From Glaciecola amylolytica (lineage in GTDB: Bacteria > Bacteroidota > Bacteroidia > Flavobacteriales_D > Crocinitomicaceae): DNA of 64,000 nucleotides. The position numbers and the translations under genes were made by a program. How positions within the stretch are numbered: position 1 is the first letter of the stretch; every line of letters begins with the position of its first letter. Below are positions 1 to 13,252 of the stretch, in pieces. The stretch covers positions 2,232,001 through 2,296,000 of the forward strand of contig CP034120.1 of the NCBI GenBank assembly GCA_003856375.1, given 5' to 3'. The notes beneath the pieces are model-generated. The model saw only the letters and a program-made list of their open reading frames with translations, was not told where the DNA came from and made no database searches.

Positions 1-179
1 CTTTATTGTTTCCATATTCATGAATGTATGCTTTTGAAATCATGAGTTGTAAGTTTGGTTAAACTGACGACTGTGGTTCACGGCTTGTTGATTGTTACAA
101 CAGGTGAAGTAAATCGAAATTAGAGATCTAACGTTGCGTGGGCCTTGCGTTCAGTTTTTATTAGCGATCAATCCACGAA

Positions 180-623
180 TTAGTTTCCCTTGTGGTATTC
201 TAAAAAGTTATCAGCAACATCTCGGATCTCTTTCTGTATTTGCTGATCTTTACTGATAGAATTCAGTATTCCAATGAATTCTTTTTGTTTTTCATTTTTA
301 CTTCCATTTATTACCCGGTTCAATAACCAAACGGTGTGAACTGTCGGCTTTTGTTCCACAGACTGTTTTAAACAAGTTTCATATTCGTCTTGCCTGTCTT
401 TATAAAATTTCTCAATAAAATGTGTTAATGGTCCGGGTGTTCCAAATTCCACCAGTGGATTTTTTTCCATTAATTTAAGAATACTTTCAACTGCTTCAAA
501 TCCGACTTTCTCCTCTTCCATTCTATCTACAATATCATACTGTAACTGAATGAACTCTGCTTCTTCTGAATACCAGTCATTTTTTTCAATAAAGTCTTCT
601 ATTGGCTGTAAGTATTTTTCCAT
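180..623 (-). CDS. Unknown small acidic protein (147 aa)
   Basis: I do not recognise this protein. It has an ATG start, no signal peptide and no membrane segment, and it is rich in Glu, Lys and aromatic residues and looks all-helical. A soluble cytoplasmic protein of this size and composition in an accessory region could be an immunity-type protein, but no toxin gene lies beside it and I see no diagnostic motif. It is the last gene on the minus strand before the window edge. The next gene upstream, the 216-aa unknown, ends 110 bp away, so it probably has its own promoter. Base composition is AT-rich like its neighbours up to the tRNA at 6.3 kb. Confidence 0.6.
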   Translation of the reverse strand: MEKYLQPIEDFIEKNDWYSEEAEFIQLQYDIVDRMEEEKVGFEAVESILKLMEKNPLVEFGTPGPLTHFIEKFYKDRQDEYETCLKQSVEQKPTVHTVWLLNRVINGSKNEKQKEFIGILNSISKDQQIQKEIRDVADNFLEYHKGN

Positions 624-733
624 TGTTTTATTGAGATTTCTTGTATAAGTTCCAAAATGTTTTTGTTTATCATTGGCTTTTCTTCTCCTTAGTTTTGGAG
701 GGCTTCGACTTACAATTGCAATGGCTCTTTTTA

Positions 734-1384
734 TTACTGCTTGTCATAATATTCGTATGGTTCTTTTAAATGGTGTTTTTCCGTGATTTCATTTTTCCAG
801 GCAAAATAATCATCAGCAAATTCATTGAAATCACTTGGGATTCCTTTTGTCCAATACATATCTCCATGCACCAATAGCATTGCCCAATGATAATCTAATT
901 CATGTGTTAAAAACTCAACATCTTCCATTTTTCCTGGAATTTTTATCAGATGTGAATTATTTACATTTTCATTAGCTAGCTCATAATTTAGTCCGCCATA
1001 TTTTACCATTGTGTGTTTTATAATTTCACAAAACGAAAAATGATTAAATATTACACCCGTTTTATTATCTTCAAATTGCAACCCATCATTTAACGGTAAT
1101 ACTTTTTGTATGTCCCAAACCCTTATTTCAGGACGGCACCAGCCCGTGACAATGTCAAGTATGTCATGTGCTACATCTTCCTGAGTCTCATTGTTTGATA
1201 CTGTTAAAGCTATTTGTTCAACTATTTTTTGTGCAGCTTCTTGTTGTCCCCCTGAATTTTTATAATCGAATAGAATGTCGTGAATTTGTTTGTTAAAACT
1301 GTTTAGTTGTTCAATGGCTTGATAATAATAATTTCCCTTTTCAATTATCTTTTTTAAAATTTCATGAAGGTTCTCATCTGTCAT
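734..1384 (-). CDS. Unknown soluble protein (216 aa)
   Basis: Not recognised. The ATG start is clear. The N-terminal half is helical and the C-terminal half is rich in aromatic residues (HELDYHWAMLLVHGDMYWTK near residue 170). There is no signal peptide or transmembrane stretch. A histidine-containing segment (THELDYHW) superficially recalls a metal site, but no HExxH or other complete metal motif is present, so no enzyme call is made. It lies between the 147-aa unknown and a GNAT acetyltransferase, all on the minus strand. Just upstream of its start are two inverted repeats (1403-1438 and 1443-1466). Confidence 0.6.
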   Translation of the reverse strand: MTDENLHEILKKIIEKGNYYYQAIEQLNSFNKQIHDILFDYKNSGGQQEAAQKIVEQIALTVSNNETQEDVAHDILDIVTGWCRPEIRVWDIQKVLPLNDGLQFEDNKTGVIFNHFSFCEIIKHTMVKYGGLNYELANENVNNSHLIKIPGKMEDVEFLTHELDYHWAMLLVHGDMYWTKGIPSDFNEFADDYFAWKNEITEKHHLKEPYEYYDKQ

Positions 1385-1402
1385 TTTCTGTGATTCGATT
1401 TA

Positions 1403-1466
1403 GTTTTTGCGGGCGTTTTCTCATGTATGCGCAAAAACACCCCTAACGTGCCAAGCGTTACGTTAG
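1403..1466. repeat. Pair of inverted repeats between two accessory genes
   Basis: A 9-bp perfect inverted repeat (GTTTTTGCG at 1403-1411, CGCAAAAAC at 1430-1438) is followed directly by a 6-bp one (CTAACG at 1443-1448, CGTTAG at 1461-1466). They fill the gap between the GNAT stop and the next gene. They could be a terminator for the minus-strand GNAT gene or the remains of a recombination site. No T-run follows on the minus strand, which weakens the terminator reading. Confidence 0.45.
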
Positions 1467-1897
1467 CTCAGTTTTTTTCTCATCTTTAAATGTGGTATTC
1501 CATCTTCATCAAAATAGTCTCCAATTCCTTCGTAACCATTTTTGAGATAAAAGTTTACCGCTGAGTCGCGAGCGTGACAATACATTAATTTAGATTTCCG
1601 GTCTATGGCAAACGTTTCGCAGAAGGCCATCATTTCTGAACCAATATTCGTCCCCCTAAGAGTTTCTGTCACAACCACTCTTTGCATTTTCATTGCATCA
1701 CCTTCAGGTACGAGAACGGCCGTGGCTATAATCGTATCGTCTATAAAACCCGCTATTTGAAAATGATATTTCTCTTCTTCTAATTCCTGGTCAGTAAAGA
1801 AACTTCCAAGTGGTTCTCTGAGAATTTTTTCTCTAAGTTTCACCGCATTTGTCCATTCCGGACTTTTATGGGCAATCTCTTTAAATGTTGTTTTCAT
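1463..1897 (-). CDS. GNAT family N-acetyltransferase, ElaA-like (144 aa)
   Basis: A complete small GNAT acetyltransferase that should move an acetyl group from acetyl-CoA to an amine; the acceptor is unknown. The N-terminal segment LREKILREPLG (about 21-31) and the C-terminal HLKMRKKL are typical of the ElaA-like branch. The acetyl-CoA motif A is seen as QRVVVTETLRGTNIGSEMM (about 72-90), a slightly degenerate R/Q-x-x-G-x-G/A loop. YLKNGYEGIGD near residue 117 is the usual beta6-alpha4 end of the fold. It has an ATG start and is one of a run of unrelated single genes on the minus strand, which suggests accessory DNA gathered piecemeal rather than an operon. Confidence 0.85.
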   Translation of the reverse strand: MKTTFKEIAHKSPEWTNAVKLREKILREPLGSFFTDQELEEEKYHFQIAGFIDDTIIATAVLVPEGDAMKMQRVVVTETLRGTNIGSEMMAFCETFAIDRKSKLMYCHARDSAVNFYLKNGYEGIGDYFDEDGIPHLKMRKKLS

Positions 1898-2011
1898 AAA
1901 TTGTAGCCAGCTTAATTATTGATTAAATTAAACATATTTTTATTCCGATTAACGCACATTTATACTTAGTTCTCAGAATTTGGGATCGATGAAGTGTGAA
2001 CAGGGAAATTT

Positions 2012-2066
2012 CAAACTTTTTGATAGAAGATTTAGAGCGGATGTTACAACTTGAAACCATTAATTA
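2012..2066 (+). repeat. Dispersed ~50-bp repeat, copy A (DLER-type)
   Basis: The first of three related stretches (others at 3387-3443 and 4021-4076). All share GATTTRGAGCGG followed by a TTACAACTTGAAA-like block. On the plus strand each can be read as ...DLER-hydrophobic-LQLE... just before a stop codon, although every real gene around is on the minus strand. It is best read as the remnant 3' end of a repeatedly inserted or duplicated element. Confidence 0.55.
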
Positions 2067-2501
2067 ATGTAAAGTTTCAATACGAGGCCATTTCCAGGCA
2101 TAACGGATAATCAGGCAAAGCAGAACGACTTCTACAACAGCACCAATCACCATATGTATCCAGGCCTCTCCCACCAGATTAAACAAGGTATAAGGAATAT
2201 AAACCGCGGCAATAATAATATTAGTCGGGCGATTTACTTTAGCCGGCAGAGCAACGGAAAGAAAAATCATCAGTACCGGAATTGTCATTGAGGCGAGTGC
2301 TGTCACAAGAAATGCTTGCGTAATATCAAATACAAACACCTTACCTGCTAACATATTTTCCAGTGAACCAGGCATGTATAAGTGGAAATAATCTACATAG
2401 ATGTAGAGAAACATAAAACTCGCCCACAGCGTAGCAAGCTTCAGCTTCAAACTGACTTTGATGTCTTCCAATGAGTTTTGTTGTGTTTTTTGTGTATTCA
2501 T
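2064..2501 (-). CDS. DUF6326 family four-helix membrane protein (145 aa)
   Basis: A small inner-membrane protein with four predicted transmembrane helices at about residues 23-43, 60-82, 88-108 and 112-135. The short soluble N-terminus carries a Gln/Asn/Thr-rich leader and the C-terminus is WKWPRIE. The motif YVDYFHLYMPG after the first helix fits the DUF6326 family as I remember it; no biochemical function is established. The start is ATG. The minus-strand gene upstream is a Crp-type regulator, and a 38-bp tandem repeat lies between them, so co-transcription is possible but not shown. Confidence 0.7.
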   Translation of the reverse strand: MNTQKTQQNSLEDIKVSLKLKLATLWASFMFLYIYVDYFHLYMPGSLENMLAGKVFVFDITQAFLVTALASMTIPVLMIFLSVALPAKVNRPTNIIIAAVYIPYTLFNLVGEAWIHMVIGAVVEVVLLCLIIRYAWKWPRIETLH

Positions 2502-2597
2502 ATTTTAACAGATAAGTAAACGATACTCCAAAGATAAATTGGCCCTGAGCCTGAAATCGTTCACTTAAGTTAAGAAATGAAATTACTCCCTTACTTC

Positions 2598-2705
2598 CAC
2601 TAACGTTCTGTTCTTCAGAAGCAGTGCTTGTCCCTGCGCTAACGCTTGGTCTTCAGGAGCGGTGCTTGTCCCTGCGCTAACGCTTGGTCTTCAGGAGCGG
2701 TGCTC
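2598..2705. repeat. 38-bp tandem repeat, about 2.8 copies
   Basis: Two nearly identical 38-bp units (from 2636, beginning GCGCTAACGCTTGG and ending GTGCTTGTCCCT) are preceded by one degenerate unit starting near 2598 with a 1-nt insertion. The partial last unit runs into the Crp-type gene and supplies its last codons (Glu-His-Arg-Ser) and stop codon. Each unit contains the near-palindrome GCGCTAACGC. The layout suggests stepwise duplication of the gene's 3' end. Confidence 0.8.
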
Positions 2706-3278
2706 CTTCTTCTCCAAAATTCTTGATCGGAGTCTGCTCAATGATTGAGGTTTAATACCCAAATAACTTGCTAATTGATGTTGTGGAACACGCTGAATAA
2801 GGTCCGGCCTTTTTTGCAGTAAGTTCAGGTATCGTTGTTCAGGAGAAGAAGTTTTAAATTCATCAAAGTCTATTCGCTGTTTCGCTAAAAGTTCTTCGGA
2901 TAATATTCTGCAGAGCGTTTCAAACTTTGGAAATTTACCGTTTATTTCTACTTCCATATCAGAATTTGAAACAGTCAGTATCGTGTCTTCTATACAACTT
3001 ATGTAATATTCGGATGGCGTTTTGCTTATTACACAAGGAGGTGCCAAAGCATCCATTTCTGTGTAGAAAGCAGTCGTTTTTTCTTCACCATCCAAAAGAT
3101 AATAAGTGCGAATACAACCTTTTAGAACAAAGTAGCTTTCTTTCGATTTTTGTCCTGCCTGGAGCAAAGTCGTTCCTTTCTTAACCGAGCGAAATATGTC
3201 CAAAGAAACGATTGCGTTCTTCTCATCTTCTGTCAGAGAAACGTATTTTGATATAAAATCAAATAGTATATTCTTCAT
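2691..3278 (-). CDS. Crp/Fnr family transcriptional regulator (195 aa)
   Basis: A cyclic-nucleotide-binding-fold regulator of the short Bacteroidetes type. Residues about 10-115 form the effector domain (LLQAGQKSKESYFVLKGCIR is the usual beta-roll), and residues about 145-190 form a winged helix-turn-helix with the recognition segment HQLASYLGIKPQSLSRLRSR. Such proteins bind palindromic DNA near promoters; the ligand here is unknown and no FNR-type cysteine cluster is present. The start is ATG. The last few codons lie inside a copy of a 38-bp tandem repeat, so the native C-terminus may have been altered. The neighbouring DUF6326 gene is a plausible target. Confidence 0.88.
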   Translation of the reverse strand: MKNILFDFISKYVSLTEDEKNAIVSLDIFRSVKKGTTLLQAGQKSKESYFVLKGCIRTYYLLDGEEKTTAFYTEMDALAPPCVISKTPSEYYISCIEDTILTVSNSDMEVEINGKFPKFETLCRILSEELLAKQRIDFDEFKTSSPEQRYLNLLQKRPDLIQRVPQHQLASYLGIKPQSLSRLRSRILEKKEHRS

Positions 3279-3353
3279 TGTTTTGTAGTGCTCACTGGTA
3301 TATTGACGAATATACCCCGTTTAGATGATTTGTAAAAATTTACTCGTAGACAA

Positions 3354-3384
3354 AATGAGAAGCAGAATGAAAATGAAGAAAAAA
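3354..3384 (+). repeat. Copy of the sequence flanking the tRNA-Arg terminator
   Basis: This 31-bp stretch (AATGAGAAGCAGAATGAAAA and onwards) matches 6212-6242, just beyond the tRNA-Arg terminator, at about 28 of 31 positions. The copy is followed at once by copy B of the dispersed DLER-type repeat. It indicates that DNA from beside the tRNA has been duplicated about 2.8 kb away. Confidence 0.6.
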
Positions 3385-3386
3385 AT

Positions 3387-3443
3387 CAAGCTTTTTGATG
3401 AAGGATTTGGAGCGGATTCTTCAACTTGAAACGATTGAAGAAT
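3387..3443 (+). repeat. Dispersed ~50-bp repeat, copy B (DLER-type)
   Basis: The second copy of the element seen at 2012 and 4021. On the plus strand it can be read as MKDLERILQLETIEEF, with a stop shortly after. A 14-bp sequence TATTGACGAATATA occurs upstream at 3301-3314 and again at 3972-3985 ahead of copy C, so copies B and C share a longer, interrupted layout. Confidence 0.6.
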
Positions 3444-3514
3444 TTCAGATTCCAATGAAATAAGACGTCTGTGGGAGATTCTACGTTGAGTGAATATTAG
3501 CCCTTCTCTACCTG

Positions 3515-3913
3515 CTAATTTTCAACACTTTTTAATTTGATGATGATTATTTCTTCTTCAAAAGTTACCGATGATAAATTGGTTCCAAAAACTTCTCTGT
3601 TCATTTTTAGAAATGCCGCATTCATCGAATCATCCATACAATGTTCATACTCCAAACTAATGAAATCAAACTTCCAGTTTTTCTTCTTTAGCTTTTCCAT
3701 TAAAACAGCATACGACTTCGAATTTTTTTCGTAATTCTGAAAAAAATCACAATACACACCTGTTAACTCAATGAAACTATCGTGATTGTATAGTCTAATT
3801 GGTTCATTGTTGTATAAATTAACGGTTATATTTTCCGGCATATCGCTTTTTTCTTTTTGTACGCAAGAAGAGAAAAAACAAAGTGATAGTATTATTCCTA
3901 AAATTAATTTCAT
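3515..3913 (-). CDS. Hypothetical lipoprotein (132 aa)
   Basis: The N-terminus has a lysine, a hydrophobic core and the lipobox FFSSC with Cys-17, so the mature protein should be lipid-anchored in the envelope. The remaining 115 residues show no family motif I recognise. They contain many Asn, Lys and Glu residues and one further cysteine near residue 54. The start is ATG. The gene stands alone between repeat copies B and C, as if it were a single insert in accessory DNA. Confidence 0.7.
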   Translation of the reverse strand: MKLILGIILSLCFFSSCVQKEKSDMPENITVNLYNNEPIRLYNHDSFIELTGVYCDFFQNYEKNSKSYAVLMEKLKKKNWKFDFISLEYEHCMDDSMNAAFLKMNREVFGTNLSSVTFEEEIIIIKLKSVEN

Positions 3914-3996
3914 TTCTTAATTATTATCCGCGTCAAAGAGCTCCCATATTGGATTTACTTCTTAAATTATGTATTGACGAATATAGGAAGTTTTTC

Positions 3997-4013
3997 GTGA
4001 CCTCATTAGGATT
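3997..4013 (+). repeat. 17-bp copy of the tRNA-Arg 3' end (att-like)
   Basis: The sequence GTGACCTCATTAGGATT matches 6278-6294, which is the acceptor and T-arm 3' end of tRNA-Arg, at 16 of 17 positions and in the same orientation. Duplication of a tRNA 3' end is the usual scar left by a tyrosine integrase. The two copies bracket 4014-6277, which holds the DAC-like gene and its small partner. No integrase gene is present between them. Confidence 0.65.
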
Positions 4014-4020
4014 ACAGATC

Positions 4021-4076
4021 CTCTCGTTTTTGTGGAAGGATTTAGAGCGGGTTTTACAATTAGAAATATTAGAATC
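4021..4076 (+). repeat. Dispersed ~50-bp repeat, copy C (DLER-type)
   Basis: The third copy, directly after the tRNA-end copy. The plus strand reads SFLWKDLERVLQLEILESKLQ with the stop at the end (split here: SFLWKDLERVLQLE, then ILESKLQ). It is the most diverged of the three but keeps GGATTTAGAGCGG. Confidence 0.55.
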
Positions 4077-4126
4077 AAAATTGCAATAAAACAGCTATTC
4101 TTCTGAATCTACAGAAAGTATCTGAA

Positions 4127-4552
4127 TTATCGATTAGCTACTAGTTTACGGACCGTATTAATACTTTTAATTAAGCCGACAGCTGCCTTTCCTGTTTCTA
4201 GTTGGAAATCAATCTGATATCCATATAAATCAACAATTCTAAAAGTCGATAATTCTGGCTTGTCCATTTGTCCTTTGAATAATCCATACAATACATCATC
4301 AATATTTTCAAACTCCACTTTAACAACTGTATTCGAAGTTTTCTCTAGAATTTGACGCGTAGTAATAAGAGTGTGTCTAGATTCACTTTGAACTTGGAAT
4401 ACTGGTAATTCATCTTCATCCAATTCAAACATCAGTTTCCATTCATCAAATGGCTCTTGAACAATTCTTGAATACTTCCAAGTTTCAATATCCATTGCAG
4501 ATCGATTAATCGCTTTAATAACAATATTTCTTATAGATTCTGGGCTTTTCAA
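4127..4552 (-). CDS. Unknown protein downstream of the DAC-like gene (141 aa)
   Basis: A soluble protein of unknown function, 42 bp downstream of the DAC-like gene on the same strand and probably in one transcript with it. It has no signal peptide or membrane helix and is mixed alpha/beta with many acidic residues. The N-terminal segment EPFDEWKLMFELDEDELPVF is followed by a C-terminal hydrophobic strand-helix. The longest reading frame opens with TTG; the first ATG would be at Met-19, so the start is uncertain. Because it is linked to a nucleotide-signalling-like protein inside a tRNA-bounded segment, it could be a partner or an effector, but that is inference only. Confidence 0.6.
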   Translation of the reverse strand: MKSPESIRNIVIKAINRSAMDIETWKYSRIVQEPFDEWKLMFELDEDELPVFQVQSESRHTLITTRQILEKTSNTVVKVEFENIDDVLYGLFKGQMDKPELSTFRIVDLYGYQIDFQLETGKAAVGLIKSINTVRKLVANR

Positions 4553-4594
4553 ATTTGATTTCGAATTTAGTTCAAGTAAAAATAGGCTCGCTTT

Positions 4595-5998
4595 TTAATA
4601 AACCACTTTATTTTTTTTATTAAAAATTTTAATTGTTCCGTCTTGCGAAATTTTAATTGCAACGCCATTTAATCCTAGAGCGCTAGCTGCACTTTCTCCC
4701 GTTCCTTTCATTCCTTCAATTTTTATTTTATTTAAATCCGCGATAACACCAATGAATCTTATCTTTCCATTTTTATCTATGATTGTTGCTCCGTCACTAG
4801 AAAGACACCTAAATATGTGATTTATAAAATTCTTATCTTTTATGTTTACGTCACCATCTATGAAAATATTTTTTGTTTTTACTTGAATATAATTATCAAT
4901 TTCTTCCATGTTCTCTGGTATCCAAATAATAGACGAAATTTGCTTCTTTGAACAATTCAAAATATAAAACAATAAAGAGTTAATCAATTCTTCTTCGCTA
5001 CTAATTACTGATTTTAAAAACTCAATAATTTGATTATAATTTCTAAACTTCCATTGATTCTCAAAAAAAAGAAACTCATAGCCAGACGAAGTATTTATCG
5101 ATAAAAGTTTCTCATTTTCTATTTTAAACAATGAATCCCCACCTTTTAAAGTAAAAGATAAAGTATGATTGTCAATATAATTTTCATTATAAACTAAATT
5201 ATCTACAACAATATATCGGGAAATATCAAGATTTTTTGTAGCTAAGAAAAATGATTTTTTTCCGTCAGCGAGGTACCAAATTCTTTTTTCTACTCTATTA
5301 GTATTCCTGAGTCTTATCATTTGGGTTAAATCATAAGAATATACAGATCTTTCATTATTTTTTTGAAAATCATGAATCGATTTTGAGATAAGAACACCTG
5401 TAGAAAAATAGTTGCCTTCAAATGAAGTTGTTCTGAGTTTTAAAAAATATTCAATTAAATGTCTTACATAGCGGTAATTGAAGTATCCTCTTGATAAATA
5501 GTTAGTAATTGTATGTTTTATTAATTCATCCCCAAATGCCAAAATCCCATTTTGAAATCTATTGAAAAACTCTTCGGATAATGTACCACTAAGTGCTCCT
5601 TCAAATACATTTAATAATTTGGTGTTCTTCGAAATTCCATAAGCAGACATAATTATTCCATAAGATGAAATTAACTGCCTTTGTTCTTGAACTCTTCCTA
5701 ATATTAAAACTTTATTCTCGTCAATTGGATAAAATCCCCTTCTAGGATTATCAAATATGTTTAAGTCAAATTGTTTAATCAATTGTGTCGAAGGATGCGG
5801 TAGAAAATCAACTTCACATTTAAAAAAATCGGATATGGTTTCTTTTAGTGTAAAAAGAATTCCTAAATCAATGAATTCTTTGTAAATGGGAAATTTTCCA
5901 AAATCTTTGTACATAACTCTTGCTAAATATAATAGTTGACTATTAATCTGTAATATGAAACTCTGTCTAAATAAATTGAAATTCAAGCTGAATGTCAA
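4595..5998 (-). CDS. Protein with a DisA/DAC-like C-terminal domain lacking the RHR motif (467 aa)
   Basis: About 370 residues of unrecognised sequence are followed by a region resembling the diadenylate cyclase (DisA_N/DAC) fold. DGATIIDKNGKIRFIGVIAD starts at residue 402, and GTGESAASALGLNGVAIKIS starts at residue 432, followed by DGTIKIF. In DisA and CdaA the equivalents are DGA and, about 30 residues later, GTRHRAA followed by a beta-strand. Here DGA and the first GT are kept, but RHR has become GES. Because RHR contacts ATP phosphates, the domain is more likely a nucleotide sensor or a changed enzyme than a normal c-di-AMP synthase. This agrees with the predicted sensor families of DAC-like domains proposed in conflict systems (DACNV and relatives). 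There are no membrane helices. The frame opens with TTG at 5998; an ATG at 5914 is an alternative start. The gene is strikingly AT-rich. Confidence 0.65.
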   Translation of the reverse strand: MTFSLNFNLFRQSFILQINSQLLYLARVMYKDFGKFPIYKEFIDLGILFTLKETISDFFKCEVDFLPHPSTQLIKQFDLNIFDNPRRGFYPIDENKVLILGRVQEQRQLISSYGIIMSAYGISKNTKLLNVFEGALSGTLSEEFFNRFQNGILAFGDELIKHTITNYLSRGYFNYRYVRHLIEYFLKLRTTSFEGNYFSTGVLISKSIHDFQKNNERSVYSYDLTQMIRLRNTNRVEKRIWYLADGKKSFFLATKNLDISRYIVVDNLVYNENYIDNHTLSFTLKGGDSLFKIENEKLLSINTSSGYEFLFFENQWKFRNYNQIIEFLKSVISSEEELINSLLFYILNCSKKQISSIIWIPENMEEIDNYIQVKTKNIFIDGDVNIKDKNFINHIFRCLSSDGATIIDKNGKIRFIGVIADLNKIKIEGMKGTGESAASALGLNGVAIKISQDGTIKIFNKKNKVVY

Positions 5999-6236
5999 GA
6001 ATTGAATTTGCGAATAGTTTTTGTTACTCTATTGAATCAATGATAAAAAATAATTCTTGAAAACTGACGAAGTACTGCAAATTTGTCAAATTATCGATAG
6101 CAATCTCTAAACGAAAGAAACCGAATTCTAGTTTCGAAAAAGGATCATTCCTCCCTCTCATTCTCAATTCTCACTCTGAAAAAGAAAAGCATCGAAGACA
6201 GATTTGGGCAGAATGAGAAACAGAATGAAAATGAGG

Positions 6237-6274
6237 AAAAAGAAAAGCATCACTTTCGCAATGCTTTTCTTTTT
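6237..6274 (-). terminator. Intrinsic terminator of tRNA-Arg
   Basis: A 14-bp perfect stem (AAAAAGAAAAGCAT at 6237-6250 and ATGCTTTTCTTTTT at 6261-6274) has a 10-nt loop. On the minus strand it begins 4 nt after the tRNA and its distal arm ends in a T-run. The stem motif AAAAAGAAAAGCATC occurs once more at about 6179-6193 without its partner, as if the flank had been duplicated. Confidence 0.8.
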
Positions 6275-6278
6275 GTTG

Positions 6279-6352
6279 TGACCTCGTTAGGATTCAAACC
6301 TAAAACCTCCACAGCCGTAATGTGGTGCTCTATTCAGTTGAGCTACGAAGCC
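6279..6352 (-). tRNA. tRNA-Arg (anticodon ACG)
   Basis: The minus strand folds as a standard cloverleaf of 74 nt. The acceptor GGCTTCG pairs with CGAGGTC (two G-U pairs), the D-arm is GCTC/GAGC, the anticodon stem CCACA/TGTGG holds loop TTACGGC giving anticodon ACG (read as ICG), and the T-stem TTAGG/CCTAA holds loop TTTGAAT. The discriminator is A73 and CCA is not encoded. A consensus promoter lies upstream at 6386-6415 and a terminator directly downstream. Its 3' end is the apparent integration point of the 4.0-6.3 kb segment. Confidence 0.95.
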
Positions 6353-6796: not shown

Positions 6797-9700
6797 TTAT
6801 TCCGCTTTAATTCTTCCTCCCTGAGCTCTGAATTGCATTTCCAACGACTTGCGCTCCTCTTCTCCGTCCACCGTCATGGAAACTTCAATGGAAGAAGCTG
6901 TTGTTTTTACTTCATAGGGAAGTGTCAAGCGAAGAATCCAATTTGCCAGCGAACCCGGAATTTCCTTTTTGTCCCATACTCCTACAACCAAATTCTGATT
7001 CGGTTCATTTAGTTCTTCTTTCGATACCGGAGTTTTCACCAAGGTATCAAAGATCACGGCTTGATTCACCAATTTCGGCAAGACTTCTGCTTTCACCGTT
7101 TTGATTCTCAAATCTGTCTGATCAAAATAGAAATCTCCCTGAATCCGCAATTGATTCATCAATTTTCGCGGATATTCCGGATACGTTTCCCGGGAAACAA
7201 GTACGTACTCTTTCAAGGCTTTCTTTTCTACCGGCGGATTTGCTTTCGCATATTCCTTCGCCACCTGCTCGTTTACCAGAATTTCCTGAACTTTCGGCAA
7301 TTCCTGTTCCTTAAACAAAATAGCTTCTCCCTCCGTTTCCAATAAGCGTTTTGCTTCCTGCAGAGAAATCCGTTCGCCATTGTAATAAGCTGTAATAAAG
7401 GCATCCGAAACACCTTTTTCAATCACATCTGCTTTCTTAGGTCGTGCTTCATCCACCGAGCGGAATGTTCCTGTGGAATAACGGATCTGTCCGTTCTCCA
7501 AACGGCGTGTTACCAAAGGATCAATGTCGTGCAGCTGCTCTTTCGTTGCCGGGCGATTGTATACTCCGACCTGAACCGTGTAGAACAATCCTTTGATTTC
7601 TTCAATCGCAATAGCGGAAACAGCTCCCGGAGCTTTGTTGTAATCACTGACTTTCGGCTCGGTTTTGTATTTCGCAATCGTATCTTGCGGAAGCTGTGCA
7701 ATCGTATTTTGAATGACTTCCATCACAATCGAATCCTGGCGCATCGGCTTACACAAGCCCTGCTCTTCCAATTGTCTTGCTTCTGCCAGGGAAATGCGTT
7801 TTCCATCGCAATACGCCACCACAAACGCATCTTTGTAACCCAAAGCGCGAATATCCTGCTGTGCATCCAAAACGCGTTGTCTGTTTCCGAAATAACCGGC
7901 TAAATAACGGGTGATTCCGTTATCCAGTTTTTCTCCCGTAACAGGCGTAAATTCTTTAAACAAATCTTCCGGAATCGGCTTGGCAAACGCTCCGACCTGT
8001 ACGCGATACACCAAACCAGTCGGTGCCTTCACTCCTACCGGAATGGCCTTCTTGATCACATTCGGCTGAACGGCTGTTTCTTTCTTAATTTCAAAACCAT
8101 TGCCAACCTGTGGAGCAAGCACTTCGGAAATTGTTGTGGAAAGTGATTCTTTTGGCTGAACTTCTCTCGTCAATACATTTTTCCACGCTTCCTTATTTCC
8201 TTCTACCTGATTCAGCGCCAAATCCAACGCCTCTTCCTTTGAAGCGATTTCCTGATTTTTAGTATTCAATTCTTTGCTTAAACGCTCAATTTCGTTTTGA
8301 ACAGCAGCTTTCTCAGCCGGATTCTCCGTTTTAACGTATGTATTTCGCTGTTCTTCCAGTTTGACTTTAGTCTGATTCACCGCTTCTTTCAAACGATTGA
8401 TTCCCTGCTGCTGCTCACGCAATTTCGGGTAGGTTTTATCGGATGCGATTCGCTGTTCTTCTTCCACTGAAACCGTTTTCAACAAAGCCGGATCATTGAT
8501 CAGATCATGTGTCTTTTCCTTCGCAAGCACATCCAGATGTTGATCTATTTTAGCAATGGCTTCTTCGAGTATTTTCTTCTGATTTTTCAGCTCGGAAACC
8601 TGTTTCGGGTCAAGAGTTGTCTTTTGCAAGACCGCTTCAATTTCTCCGATTTCAATGGTGAAACGTCTGCGTTGTTCTTTCAATGCATTTTCGGGCTGAA
8701 CAACCTGTTTTGTCTCTTCAAAAGCCTTTTTTCCGTCCAAATATTGTTTTGCAGCATCCAAAAGAGTCAAATCACTTGTTTTCTCCAAAAGCGGATCAGC
8801 TGCATTCGTAGTTTCTGATGTTCGGCTCAAAACAACTTCCTTCACAGGATCGTTACCCGGAATTTGTTCCAACGCTTGTTTTTTCTCCTCAGCAGCTTGG
8901 TTTAAGCTCACTAATTCCTTTTGCTGAATGACCTGATTCGTTTGTTTTTGTGCTTCCTGATTAACAGCCAGTTTCTTTTCAATCTCTGTTTTCTCTTTGT
9001 TGGAAGCCGCTGCCAATTGTGTCTTTAAAGCTTGTTCTTCCTCTTTTAGTTTTGTCAATTCCTTTTCCGGATTTTTAGAATCCGTTGTCTTAACAGCAAT
9101 CAATTCATTGAGGTCGATTTCAATGATTCCCTTTCGTTGTTTGATCTCCGCCAATTGCTTTTCTAAAAGCTGAATTTTCGTGTCGTTTTTCGTATCCGAA
9201 CGCTTTTCTTCATCCAGTTTCAGTTCAATACTTTCCGACAATTCGTTCAACAACTTCAACTGTTTTTCAGCCTCTTCTTTGCTTGCAGCTTTCTTGCTCA
9301 TCGCAAATTCGTAATCGCTGCCCAAAACGGTTTCCAAACTCGCTACGTCGTTGTTTACAGCTGAAACAGGTTCTTTGTTTGCCGAAGCTTTCAACTCTTC
9401 TTCCGTTTCCTTCGATTGCTGCAACAAATCCGTCAACACCTGATTTTCGGCTGTTTTTTCAGCTGAAAAAGTCTTTTCCAAACTTTTGGCATTTGCCTGA
9501 ATCTGTTTTTCAAGAGCCGTTTGAAGTTTCTTCTCTTCCACTAATTTGGCCTGAGCTTCTTCTTTGCTCAGGTTTTGAATTTCATCCGTACTCAAAACCT
9601 GGTAAGTGGGCAGGATTTCCTGACGAAGCTGTTCGTCTTTCAATTTTGCTTTTGCCTGCGAAACAGCCGTTTGCTTTTGTTCATCTAATTTCGCTTCGTG

Positions 9701-12700
9701 GATCGCTTGCAGCTGATCCAAATCGGATGACTTCTTAATTGCAGCGGAATCTGCCGGAGTTTTAGCCAGAACTTTTTTCGTTTTCTCCTGCTGTTCGCGA
9801 ATGGAAACAAGCATTTTCGTTTCTTCCTCCAACAATAATTTCGTTTTCTCCTCCGGATTCGAAGTTCCGGATTCAATTTTCGAGATGGTTTCCTGATAAG
9901 TTGGCCGCACTTCTTTAGCCAAATCCTTCTCTTCCGTATTTTTCGGATTGGTTTCCACCACTGCGTTCAAAACTTTGATTTCTTCGTTTCTCGAAGCAAT
10001 GTTTTCCTCAAACTGCTGTTTCAGATCCCGAAGCACTTCTTTTCTTCGGGTACTTAAAGCATCCGTTTTCGGAGTCAATGTCTGCAATTCCTGATCAATG
10101 GAACGAACCGCTTTCTCTTCCAATTGATTCAAAGCTTTCAATTCTCCAATTCCGTTTCCGTCTCCGATCGCTTTTTTCTCTTCTTCGTAATTCGGAGCAA
10201 GCTGATTCAATTCCTTCTCGATCGTAATTGCCGCCAGCTCGTCATTTTGTTTCGATTGCAGTTCATCCAACTGATCCTGCCGTTCTTTGACTGAAGCCTC
10301 TTTTTGTTTCTTCAACGCAGTCAAAGCATCCTTTTTATCCTGCATTTTCTGATTCAGAGGATCTTTCGTCAAAACCTCATATACTTTGTCAATTTCCGAA
10401 TCAATCTGATCCAGCAGCTTTTCATCCACCAGATTCTGAGCTTTCAGTTTCTCTTCCGGATTTGAATTCGTTGCAGCATTTTTTAACTGCTCTTCGTAAT
10501 CCGGCATCAATACCTGCAACTCTTTTTCAGCAGTCGTCGATGTATTTTTCGGAAGAACCGCATCGGAAAGAATGGTTTCCTTGTTCTTTGTATTCTCGGC
10601 TTTTAAGTTCAGTACCTGCTCTTTTTGGGTCAGCAATTTCGCATCATTCGGATTTTTACCCAATCCTTCTTCCACTTTCGCCAACTCCTGAGTGAGTTTT
10701 TTATCCAGCTGCTCGTTGTTTTTCACTTTCAGAGCCACTTTCTCTTCGTGAGTCAAATCCGCTTGCTGATCAACCGCCTGTTGAGCCAACTCGTAATTTT
10801 TCTCATATTCCTCTACCCGTTCTTTCGATTCCTGAGCCAGAATATCATTCGTACGCGCTGTGACATGTGACGTATCGATCGATTTCACTTGCTGTTTTAC
10901 GTACGATTCGAGCGATTTGACATTGTTCGAATGAATGGCTTCTACTTTCAGATCTGCTTCCGCTTTCGTTACTTTCCGGTTTTCATCGGTGTTTTGCAGG
11001 TTATTGATGAAGGTAATCTGTTTCGTATTGCTGATTTCTTTCTTATTCAATTCGGCTACTTTTCCTTCCAAACGATTCGTTTCTTCCGAAACCAGTGTTT
11101 TCTCCGCTTCCCTGGAATCAATTTTAGATTGGATCGCCGGCTGATCTTTTGCTTTGGCAACGGCTAATTCCGATTTCAGGGTTTTTAGTTCCTGTTCCAG
11201 CTTCTGATCGTTTTCTTTATACGAATTCAACTGTTTTTTCAACTGTTCCGTCTGTTTTCCCACTGCTTCATTTTGAGCCAGCAGATTATCAACCGGATGC
11301 GTTTCTTTTTCGTTTTCGATCTCTTTCACCAAATCAGCTTTGGCAATAACGGCTTCTTTCAACTGATCGTATTTTTCATCGACCACCGCCTTACGCACTA
11401 CCTCTTTTAATTCTGTAATGGCTTTTAACTGCTCTTTTTCCTTTGGAATGAGCTTGGAAATACTATCGGAAAAAGCATCGATTCGCAGAATTTCTTCTTT
11501 CAATTCCAGAATTCGTTCCACCTTATCGTTGGCAGCAAGCAAAATATCATTCTTTTCCGTCTTGGTTTCCGCAGCATTTGCTTTTGCAACGTCTTTTTTG
11601 ATTTCAGCCTGAAGCTTTTCTACTTCCCCTGCTTTATCAACAATGGCAATCAATGACCCGTTTTCCAGGCGTTCCAGTCCGTCTACTTTTTGTTCCTGTT
11701 TTTGCTGAATGGCTTCAAACTTCGAAATGATCTCCTGATTCGATGCATTTTCCAGTCCGATATCCGCCAGTACTTTCTTGTTTTCCTTTTGAGCGTCCAG
11801 AGCATTGATGTCGAAATGTCCGGCGTTTACATTTAATTCGGCTCTCGCCCGAATGACTTCCGCCAAAATTCCCTGTGCATCTTCCACTTCTTCGTTAAAC
11901 AAATCAACCACCCGGACAACGTCTTCATTATTGAGTGCTTCTTCCTGAATTTTTTGCTTCAAGGGTTTAAACTCTTTCAAAAACGGAATGTTCACCTGTG
12001 ATTTATGAATCGTTGTACTTCCTCCAACAGTCATTTCGTAGGTATACTTTCCACCTTTCGGGAACGTGATCAGATATTTCCCCTCTTCGTTGGAATTAAA
12101 TACTCCGACTTCATTTCCGGAAACCACATCCGTTACCTTGATGCTGAGTTTTTTATTTTCGGGATTGATTGATGATTTGAATTCTCCTTTTACAATGGCC
12201 AGCTGAAGCGGAACACGGTCTACACGCACTTTATACACATGAATCTTGCCGTTTTCACTTTGTCGCGCCGATGCGAAATAAGCATTTTGTTCCAAAGAAT
12301 CGACCACATAGAACAAATCATTGTCGGGTGAAGAAATGGCAAAATCCATGTTCTCCGGATCGCCAAACGAATTTGTTTCAGCATCAAACCGGGAACGAAA
12401 CACATCAAATCCTCCCATGGAATTGTGTCCTTTCGAACAGAAATACAAATATTCTCCATTCGGACTCAAATACGGAAAGTCTTCATCAAACTTCGTGTTT
12501 ACATTCCCCGGAACCAAAGCCGGAAGTCCCCACTTTCCATCCGGAAGTCTTTTCCGGCAGTAAATATCCTTGCTTCCTTTATCAGATTCACCGTAAGAGG
12601 AATAATAAACAGTCTGCGCATTATCCGGAAAATGGATCAATGGAGTGTGATTGCGTTTCTTATCGATTTTGGATTGGTAATCAGCCGTGATCAGAATCAC

Positions 12701-13252
12701 TCCTCCGATATGAGACAAGTTGTATAAACGGAAAAACGAACCGTATTCAATCTGCTTCTTTTCCAGAACCACCAGATCTGTAATCGTTGTGAGCAGTTTT
12801 TTTCCGTTCTGGCACATTTCAATCTGCCTTTCAACTTCAAAACCGGGATTGGGTTTTCCTGCACTTTTCTGAATATAAACGTTGTAGTTTTTGATTGCCT
12901 CGTTGAACTGGAAGTTCAAATGGTAGGCTTTTCCCAAATAGAAATAAGCTTCCGGAGCAATGGCAGGATCGGTGATACTGAAATTCAAATATTTGAATGC
13001 ATCCTGCTTTTTATTCGAATTGAAAAGCAGACAGGTTCCGTATTTGTAGTTGTAATCCGTCGACCGGGGATTCAAAGCAATCAGATGCAGATAGAGCGGA
13101 GTTGCTTCAACAAATTGTTCCGAATGAAAGAGTTTGTCGGCTTTTACCTTCAGATCTGCCTCGGTTTCTTGTGCAAAAGACAGTTGAGCCGTTTGAATAA
13201 ACAGAAATAGTAGTAACCAACCATTTATCAATTTAAATGACTTCAAACTCAA
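6797..13252 (-). CDS. Giant PorE-like periplasmic protein: TPR, beta-propeller, coiled coil, two SPOR domains (2151 aa)
   Basis: A Sec signal peptide (about 1-28, ending LSFAQ) is followed by TPR-like helices (about 30-155), PD40/WD40-like propeller repeats (about 205-350, with SPNGEYLYFCSKGHNSMGGF), a carboxypeptidase-regulatory-like beta domain (about 355-425), more than 1200 residues of charged coiled coil, and two SPOR domains (VYRVQVGAF near 1747 and FYTVQVGVYN near 1887, each ending in a conserved Y.DG/Y.NG.RISL segment). A C-terminal beta domain of about 150 residues closes it. SPOR domains bind denuded peptidoglycan glycan strands. The front half has the domain order of PorE, a T9SS protein whose OmpA-like tail holds peptidoglycan. 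A structural or secretion-linked anchor in the periplasm is therefore likely but inferred. It begins 24 bp after plsY ends. Confidence 0.8.
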   Translation of the reverse strand: MSLKSFKLINGWLLLFLFIQTAQLSFAQETEADLKVKADKLFHSEQFVEATPLYLHLIALNPRSTDYNYKYGTCLLFNSNKKQDAFKYLNFSITDPAIAPEAYFYLGKAYHLNFQFNEAIKNYNVYIQKSAGKPNPGFEVERQIEMCQNGKKLLTTITDLVVLEKKQIEYGSFFRLYNLSHIGGVILITADYQSKIDKKRNHTPLIHFPDNAQTVYYSSYGESDKGSKDIYCRKRLPDGKWGLPALVPGNVNTKFDEDFPYLSPNGEYLYFCSKGHNSMGGFDVFRSRFDAETNSFGDPENMDFAISSPDNDLFYVVDSLEQNAYFASARQSENGKIHVYKVRVDRVPLQLAIVKGEFKSSINPENKKLSIKVTDVVSGNEVGVFNSNEEGKYLITFPKGGKYTYEMTVGGSTTIHKSQVNIPFLKEFKPLKQKIQEEALNNEDVVRVVDLFNEEVEDAQGILAEVIRARAELNVNAGHFDINALDAQKENKKVLADIGLENASNQEIISKFEAIQQKQEQKVDGLERLENGSLIAIVDKAGEVEKLQAEIKKDVAKANAAETKTEKNDILLAANDKVERILELKEEILRIDAFSDSISKLIPKEKEQLKAITELKEVVRKAVVDEKYDQLKEAVIAKADLVKEIENEKETHPVDNLLAQNEAVGKQTEQLKKQLNSYKENDQKLEQELKTLKSELAVAKAKDQPAIQSKIDSREAEKTLVSEETNRLEGKVAELNKKEISNTKQITFINNLQNTDENRKVTKAEADLKVEAIHSNNVKSLESYVKQQVKSIDTSHVTARTNDILAQESKERVEEYEKNYELAQQAVDQQADLTHEEKVALKVKNNEQLDKKLTQELAKVEEGLGKNPNDAKLLTQKEQVLNLKAENTKNKETILSDAVLPKNTSTTAEKELQVLMPDYEEQLKNAATNSNPEEKLKAQNLVDEKLLDQIDSEIDKVYEVLTKDPLNQKMQDKKDALTALKKQKEASVKERQDQLDELQSKQNDELAAITIEKELNQLAPNYEEEKKAIGDGNGIGELKALNQLEEKAVRSIDQELQTLTPKTDALSTRRKEVLRDLKQQFEENIASRNEEIKVLNAVVETNPKNTEEKDLAKEVRPTYQETISKIESGTSNPEEKTKLLLEEETKMLVSIREQQEKTKKVLAKTPADSAAIKKSSDLDQLQAIHEAKLDEQKQTAVSQAKAKLKDEQLRQEILPTYQVLSTDEIQNLSKEEAQAKLVEEKKLQTALEKQIQANAKSLEKTFSAEKTAENQVLTDLLQQSKETEEELKASANKEPVSAVNNDVASLETVLGSDYEFAMSKKAASKEEAEKQLKLLNELSESIELKLDEEKRSDTKNDTKIQLLEKQLAEIKQRKGIIEIDLNELIAVKTTDSKNPEKELTKLKEEEQALKTQLAAASNKEKTEIEKKLAVNQEAQKQTNQVIQQKELVSLNQAAEEKKQALEQIPGNDPVKEVVLSRTSETTNAADPLLEKTSDLTLLDAAKQYLDGKKAFEETKQVVQPENALKEQRRRFTIEIGEIEAVLQKTTLDPKQVSELKNQKKILEEAIAKIDQHLDVLAKEKTHDLINDPALLKTVSVEEEQRIASDKTYPKLREQQQGINRLKEAVNQTKVKLEEQRNTYVKTENPAEKAAVQNEIERLSKELNTKNQEIASKEEALDLALNQVEGNKEAWKNVLTREVQPKESLSTTISEVLAPQVGNGFEIKKETAVQPNVIKKAIPVGVKAPTGLVYRVQVGAFAKPIPEDLFKEFTPVTGEKLDNGITRYLAGYFGNRQRVLDAQQDIRALGYKDAFVVAYCDGKRISLAEARQLEEQGLCKPMRQDSIVMEVIQNTIAQLPQDTIAKYKTEPKVSDYNKAPGAVSAIAIEEIKGLFYTVQVGVYNRPATKEQLHDIDPLVTRRLENGQIRYSTGTFRSVDEARPKKADVIEKGVSDAFITAYYNGERISLQEAKRLLETEGEAILFKEQELPKVQEILVNEQVAKEYAKANPPVEKKALKEYVLVSRETYPEYPRKLMNQLRIQGDFYFDQTDLRIKTVKAEVLPKLVNQAVIFDTLVKTPVSKEELNEPNQNLVVGVWDKKEIPGSLANWILRLTLPYEVKTTASSIEVSMTVDGEEERKSLEMQFRAQGGRIKAE

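Follow-up and report, generated by a model that had tools for sequence, protein, structure and literature searches.

Behind the tRNA-Arg(ACG) gene of a 64-kb stretch of the Glaciecola amylolytica genome (contig CP034120.1, positions 2,232,001 to 2,296,000; hereafter the window, in whose positions all coordinates are given) lies a 2.3-kb unit carrying a gene for a protein with a diadenylate cyclase (DAC)-like C-terminal domain. We put at roughly 0.55 the probability that this unit is a cassette bounded by attachment (att) sites and lacking a recombinase of its own, that a serine recombinase placed it there, and that its cargo is a catalytically dead DAC-fold nucleotide sensor, possibly taking part in stress or phage signaling. 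The window appears to hold three such recombinase-less units in tandem at this tRNA, an arrangement well supported by their computed boundaries (table 1).

Table 1. Features of the array at the tRNA-Arg(ACG) gene; D1 is a 40-nt repeat, and handles beginning with G designate genomes.
Feature	Position	Strand	Remarks
tRNA-Arg(ACG)	6278-6352	-	putative integration target; its 3′ end holds the att core GTGACC (+ strand)
Stretch just downstream of the tRNA, hairpin-like part	6156-6277		next to a displaced att copy (G009) and next to a D1 (G011)
Unit 1	3997-6277		DAC-like and 141-aa genes; 2.3 kb
DAC-like gene	4595-5998	-	467-aa open reading frame (ORF), TTG start; C-terminal DAC-fold domain at about residues 320-467
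141-aa gene	4127-4552	-	42 bp from the DAC-like ORF; weak DUF2958 match below cut-off
tRNA 3′-end copy (16/17) plus ACAGATCCTCTCG	3997-4026	+	distal att remnant
D1 arm 1	4027-4090	+	reads FLWKDLERVLQLEILESKLQ then stop; distal end of unit 1
Unit 2	ends at D1 arm 2		132-aa ORF 3515-3913
D1 arm 2	3392-3450	+	distal end of unit 2; core lost
Unit 3	ends at D1 arm 3		Crp-like gene 2691-3278 and 145-aa ORF 2064-2501; common to G011
D1 arm 3	1989-2068	+	distal end of unit 3; core lost

The first line of evidence concerns the copy of the tRNA 3′ end that bounds unit 1. The window has this single detected tRNA, and 3997-4013 is identical to its 3′ end at 16 of 17 positions; within three mismatches, no further place for the 17-nt copy exists on either strand of the window, and a 16-nt pattern derived from it (at most one mismatch) occurs just twice in the whole 4,606,342-base (4.6 Mb) genome; the reversed-pattern control gave none. 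Together with CAGATCCTCTCG, the copy recurs (28-38 nt, 89-94%) in 4 of 13 congeners (G007, G009, G011, and G012), either beside the tRNA or within the array behind it, a count for which three loci end at contig ends and some arrays were read in part (the tRNA was detected by ARAGORN at 12 of the 13 congener loci). The two-place genome count and this recurrence rule out a chance origin, and, judged by sequence, the copy is a real attachment-site remnant. The original prediction, which read the segment as an integrated element without its integrase at a tRNA-Arg, is borne out by the recurrence of the att parts in congeners. Its description of the segment as far more AT-rich than the remainder holds against the whole window (29.0% guanine plus cytosine [GC] for 4014-6277 and 27.1% for the DAC-like ORF vs. 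40.3%) and less well against the adjoining bases 1-3996, which are likewise low (35.1%); the lowest-GC 2264-nt stretch of the window (steps of 50) begins at 3801. The bases immediately downstream of the tRNA had been considered as an argument against a clean insertion, and we dropped it because similar sequence flanks displaced copies of the att site in both G009 and G011; the stretch 6156-6277 is probably carried by the units themselves.

A second boundary element, absent from the original prediction, is the D1 repeat, present in the window at 2017, 3392, and 4027. Of the 14 genus genomes, 6 together hold 18 matches to the D1 pattern (at most two mismatches), and a pattern joining core and arm found D1 in a seventh, G001; one match in the window's own genome (G000:3044682, two mismatches) was omitted from the D1 alignment as chance. 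The tRNA 3′-end core GTGACC directly precedes D1 in 12 of 14 congener copies, the other two being without it, and D1 encodes DLERVLQLE or near it, with mostly synonymous variation. In G011 and G012, a large serine recombinase gene follows the same tRNA-Arg and overlaps it by its 3′ end, the G012 product having Pfam Resolvase and Recombinase domains, and all four recombinase copies at 82% identity or more (one in G012, two in G011, of which one has a stop in the matched frame, and one in G013) are accompanied, at a distance of about 24-36 kb, by a D1 on their own strand. Most likely, the units would have been placed by a recombinase of the G011/G012 type whose own gene would carry the attachment site of the element (attP) at its 3′ end, a position that fits because of the tRNA overlap and of the distant same-strand D1. 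Integration would then swap the recombinase C-terminus for tRNA sequence and leave D1 at the far end, and the units may have moved in this manner in the past.

Alternatively, the tRNA copy could be an old att site left by a different integrase that has no relation to the serine recombinase, with D1 contributed by other elements. The copy with CAGATCCTCTCG and the D1 core, which adjoin in the window, start about 110 nt apart in G012, and the loci of G009 and G007 hold the copy without a nearby D1 match, so that the copy may represent a second att type. Against this stands the observation that both att types share the core GTGACC, the orientation, and the tRNA, and we regard this alternative as doubtful.

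Unit 1 has att sites on both sides and no recombinase gene between them, as in cis-mobilizable elements (CIMEs), whose definition and accretion are set out in PMC5704250. Like CIMEs in tandem, the units of the window are att-bounded, devoid of a recombinase, and located behind a tRNA; they differ from them in being only about 0.6-2.3 kb long, in holding one or two genes, and in ending with an arm that seems to resemble a recombinase C-terminus. Unit 1 comprises only two ORFs of at least 70 aa, neither of which has a PADLOC match, and no CD-NTase (cGAS/DncV-like nucleotidyltransferase). These ORFs, of 467 and 141 aa and 42 bp apart, are present where they had been predicted; their reading as one two-gene module finds no support in G012, where a 141-aa homolog (78% identity) has a D1 site on either side and no DAC-like gene with it. 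Positions 4027-4605 of the window are 84% identical to G012, and the alignment ends at 4605, where it has taken in only the last 11 bases of the DAC-like ORF. This separate D1-bounded unit rules out the 141-aa gene as an obligate partner; the 141-aa protein is matched in 3 of 120 family genomes, the window's own included, and may, judged by eye, be PH-like. As for unit 3, 2029-2578 (82%) and 2706-3297 (88%) match a stretch of the G011 array that has a D1 copy at either side. A series of three 38-nt repeats, arranged head to tail (the further two at 92% and 61% to the first), was also seen at 2609-2722, overlapping the Crp-like gene at its 3′ end. Similar recombinase-less cargo occurs in two species between D1 sites of the tRNA-Arg array at loci L048 (G001) and L089 (G011:1615000-1634900), with TetR, short-chain dehydrogenase/reductase, and thioredoxin-reductase-like genes (by eye) and a small gene of 169-212 aa, as if cassettes were shared.

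With regard to the cargo, the 467-aa protein keeps DGA (402-404) and KISQDG (449-454) and carries GTGES at 432-436, GES (434-436) occupying the RHR position, as had been described. Its true start is probably the ATG at 5914 (439 aa), because similarity to its closest relative, in G796, begins only at residue 51. Used alone, the protein had no match at E ≤1 in any of Pfam, PADLOC, and NCBIfam; three parts of it gave no Pfam family at E 10, PF02457 and the DACN* models being among those unmatched, and NF053872 DS2_3 (NCBIfam) did not reach its cut-off, with no family at E 1. The protein belongs to a rare lineage unmatched by every family model searched (Pfam, PADLOC, and NCBIfam). A sequence search of the PDB returned only myosin light-chain matches (E 0.13 and 0.24), judged to be chance.

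A Foldseek search of the PDB with a weak AlphaFold model of the 439-aa form gave 146 matches at E ≤10 and 67 at E ≤0.001, and the best 50 of the 146 (E 6.8e-7 to 5.3e-5) are without exception cyclases of the DisA or CdaA type or related to them, which upholds the DisA/CdaA-like domain originally proposed. In profile comparisons with DACNG-DACNH-DAC proteins, six rows (the window protein and five relatives) scored 96.4% against six such proteins (E 1.4e-9, 279 columns), and eight rows scored 95.3% (E 2e-8, 131 C-terminal columns). From the model and these profiles, a DAC fold of the C-terminal domain is well supported; the link of the middle region to DACNG-DACNH-DAC proteins is not firm, because the eight-row match covers only the 131 C-terminal columns. 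The suggested relation to DACNV-type sensors therefore stands in part: a profile link to DACN* proteins exists, and the proteins concerned carry DACNG and DACNH, not DACNV, with the window protein matching no such model. A search of the available literature found no source for the names DS2_3, DACNV, or DACNG, and the sole DACNH match was an unrelated paper.

Compared with CdaA and DisA (PF02457), the window protein is thus alike in its DAC fold (on a low-confidence model), in the DGA motif, and in the order of the C-terminal elements, and it differs by the loss of RHR, by the lack of a PF02457 match at E 1, and by a long N-terminal region of its own. With the DACNG-DACNH-DAC proteins (PF21752, PF21750) and DS2_3, it shares the C-terminal profile match and the size class, the match reaching into the middle region with the six-row profile and not with the eight-row one; GTGES is found where they have RGARYN or RGSRFN-like residues. 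The CdaA active site carries DGA and RHR (PMC10243994), and replacing RHR by AAA in Rv3586, a DisA ortholog, abolished ATP binding and c-di-AMP (cyclic di-AMP) synthesis (PMC3328451). An active c-di-AMP synthase is rejected on the loss of RHR, and the protein is most likely a noncatalytic nucleotide sensor, as far as its motifs tell. Its pocket, with DGA kept and RHR lost, would most likely make no c-di-AMP and instead bind a nucleotide or a cyclic dinucleotide; binding of this ligand would shift the state of the N-terminal region and thereby signal stress such as phage infection.

Relatives of this protein are rare. Used alone as a query, it was matched in 1 of 99 related genomes, its own, and in 1 of 14 genus genomes. 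A plasmid search gave one weak match, a 426-aa protein of Agrobacterium vitis (E 0.3 in the collection, 1e-8 pairwise), through which relatives were found in Paracoccus (L003, truncated, with no tail after DGA and excluded from later alignments), in Vescimonas, and in an unverified phage scaffold. In alignment-profile surveys, whose genome samples overlap, a phylum sample of 296 genomes yielded G327 (short, partial matches in G103, G302, and G351 at E 0.0025-0.009 being dropped as chance), a class sample of 395 yielded three genomes of one genus, 146 genomes of the class of G327 yielded G796 besides G327, and a later phylum sample of 395 yielded G000, G327, and the same three genomes. Among 38 loci from two motif scans, the family profile matched only L117 and L120 (E ≤1), and the others were dropped. 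Peptide-pattern scans found no relative in genome or viral contigs, two further scans gave only the query's own contig, and tblastn found nothing in phages with the window protein and nothing in plasmids with the G796 protein. The closest relative, the 444-aa protein of G796, aligns over 418 positions (26% identity, E 2e-54), which overturns the view that the N-terminal part resembles nothing. PF02457 was matched below its cut-off in three of the seven relatives scanned (P0001 of Agrobacterium vitis, E 7.6e-4; L008, 2.4e-3; L120, 8.4e-6). We also observed two DAC-like paralogs per genome in G168, G262, and G707, members of one genus (L023-L028); the two of these six that were scanned are both DACNG-DACNH-DAC by Pfam, above the Pfam DAC cut-off, with a match to the anti-phage NCBIfam model DS2_3 below cut-off, and the remaining four, 39-81% identical to the first, can be aligned to these two.

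An alignment of eight proteins, the window protein included, bears on whether it could still be an enzyme of altered chemistry, such as a nucleotidyltransferase or hydrolase using GTGE instead of RHR, rather than a sensor. Since GTGE is common to the window protein and the G796 protein at 26% identity, the altered site may be under selection. The other six aligned relatives differ there, with GGRT twice, GARG, GARTT, GGRS, and GARTN, and none of the eight proteins has RHR; what is invariant in the C-terminal part of all eight is DGA, three glycines, and K-x-S-x-DG, and the motifs DGA and K-x-S-x-DG suit binding better than a single chemistry. We consider an active enzyme quite improbable.

The neighborhoods of eight relatives were examined for hints of function. 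In Agrobacterium, the gene lies between a Cap15-type receptor gene and a CBASS (cyclic oligonucleotide-based antiphage signaling system) set with phospholipase, cyclase, E1-E2, and JAB genes; in G327, it is flanked on one side by a QatC-type gene, which a small gene follows, and on the other by a gene for type ISP restriction-modification, and NucC and CD-NTase cyclase genes are found within about 10 kb. The G327 locus (L021, G327:C15:4000-23900) is dense in defense-type genes and also holds a Tle1-like hydrolase and a protein with weak MBL (metallo-β-lactamase)-type matches. Elsewhere, the gene adjoins a KAP NTPase gene on a phage contig (L117), has an integrase-like gene nearby on another (L120, by eye), lies amid insertion sequences in Paracoccus, and is carried by a plasmid in Vescimonas, with a PrgI gene about 4 kb away; the surroundings of the MT837587 relative are unannotated. 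On these neighbors, a defense role is plausible, and its support is only moderate because two of the eight relatives stand among defense genes, the plasmid and phage collections favor mobile settings, and PADLOC matched none of the five relatives scanned. One of the relatives thus lies within a CBASS locus; the ORFs of the window's own unit match no PADLOC model.

Several observations weigh against the reading of a serine-recombinase-placed cassette with a dead sensor as cargo. On the side of mobility, the reversed D1 control gave 2 matches vs. 18 real ones, the core is lost in two of the three window D1 copies (copies 2 and 3), the best recombinase match in the window's own genome is 27% identical, and no empty site was shown. 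On the side of the fold, the three-row model is weak (mean predicted local distance difference test [pLDDT] score 36.9, ten-residue blocks from residue 291 on at 35-76; mean 32.4 when folded without an alignment), the target TM-scores of the 50 matches listed are 0.27-0.63, and a two-row profile scored only 51% against the DACNG-DACNH-DAC set. The profile comparison with two CdaA sequences was insignificant (4% and 0.4%), a test with little power because the Pfam-positive set likewise gives only 4%. On the side of defense, the absence of PADLOC matches extends to the window protein itself, and one of the eight relatives, that of G796, sits in a housekeeping setting between rny-like and plsY-like genes (by eye).

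This last neighborhood agrees with another possibility, namely that the DAC-like gene has a housekeeping function or is decaying, and was captured by chance in a hot spot as cargo with no role in defense; in the same direction, the window's copy is AT-rich and the gene was found in a single one of the 14 genus genomes searched. Its reading frame is nevertheless intact, the residues invariant in the family are kept, and two of the eight relatives stand amid defense genes, which makes us hold chance capture to be rather unlikely.

In a loose first look that may miss copies, PF02457 was matched above cut-off in none of 10 genus genomes, the window's own included (weak matches in G002 and G008); of five genomes from elsewhere in the order, two have a match above it, a clear CdaA, and the control found the domain in 12 of 14 well-known genomes, in 11 of them above cut-off. 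By this domain search, the genus may lack c-di-AMP synthesis of its own. Beyond the array, a 2151-aa ORF adjoining clpS was seen at 6797-13252, very long and Lys/Glu/Ala-rich by eye.

Extending these observations, we tentatively envisage, as a possibility less likely than the reading above, that serine recombinases of the genus would keep an integron-like array of one- or two-gene cassettes, shared among species, at the tRNA-Arg, each ending in an arm that encodes the displaced recombinase C-terminus; one of these cassettes might carry a stand-alone immune sensor, whose dead diadenylate cyclase fold would read a nucleotide or cyclic dinucleotide altered by infection, the hosts seemingly having no c-di-AMP synthase. 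More generally, dead signaling-enzyme folds with a retained binding pocket are good immune-sensor candidates, and the present DAC-like lineage offers one with a defined altered motif, GTGE, for which the neighbors of its relatives suggest cyclic dinucleotides as ligands. Within the genus, the D1 arm provides a search tag for recombinase-less cassettes and, with it, a route to small mobile cargo with no integrase in its vicinity.

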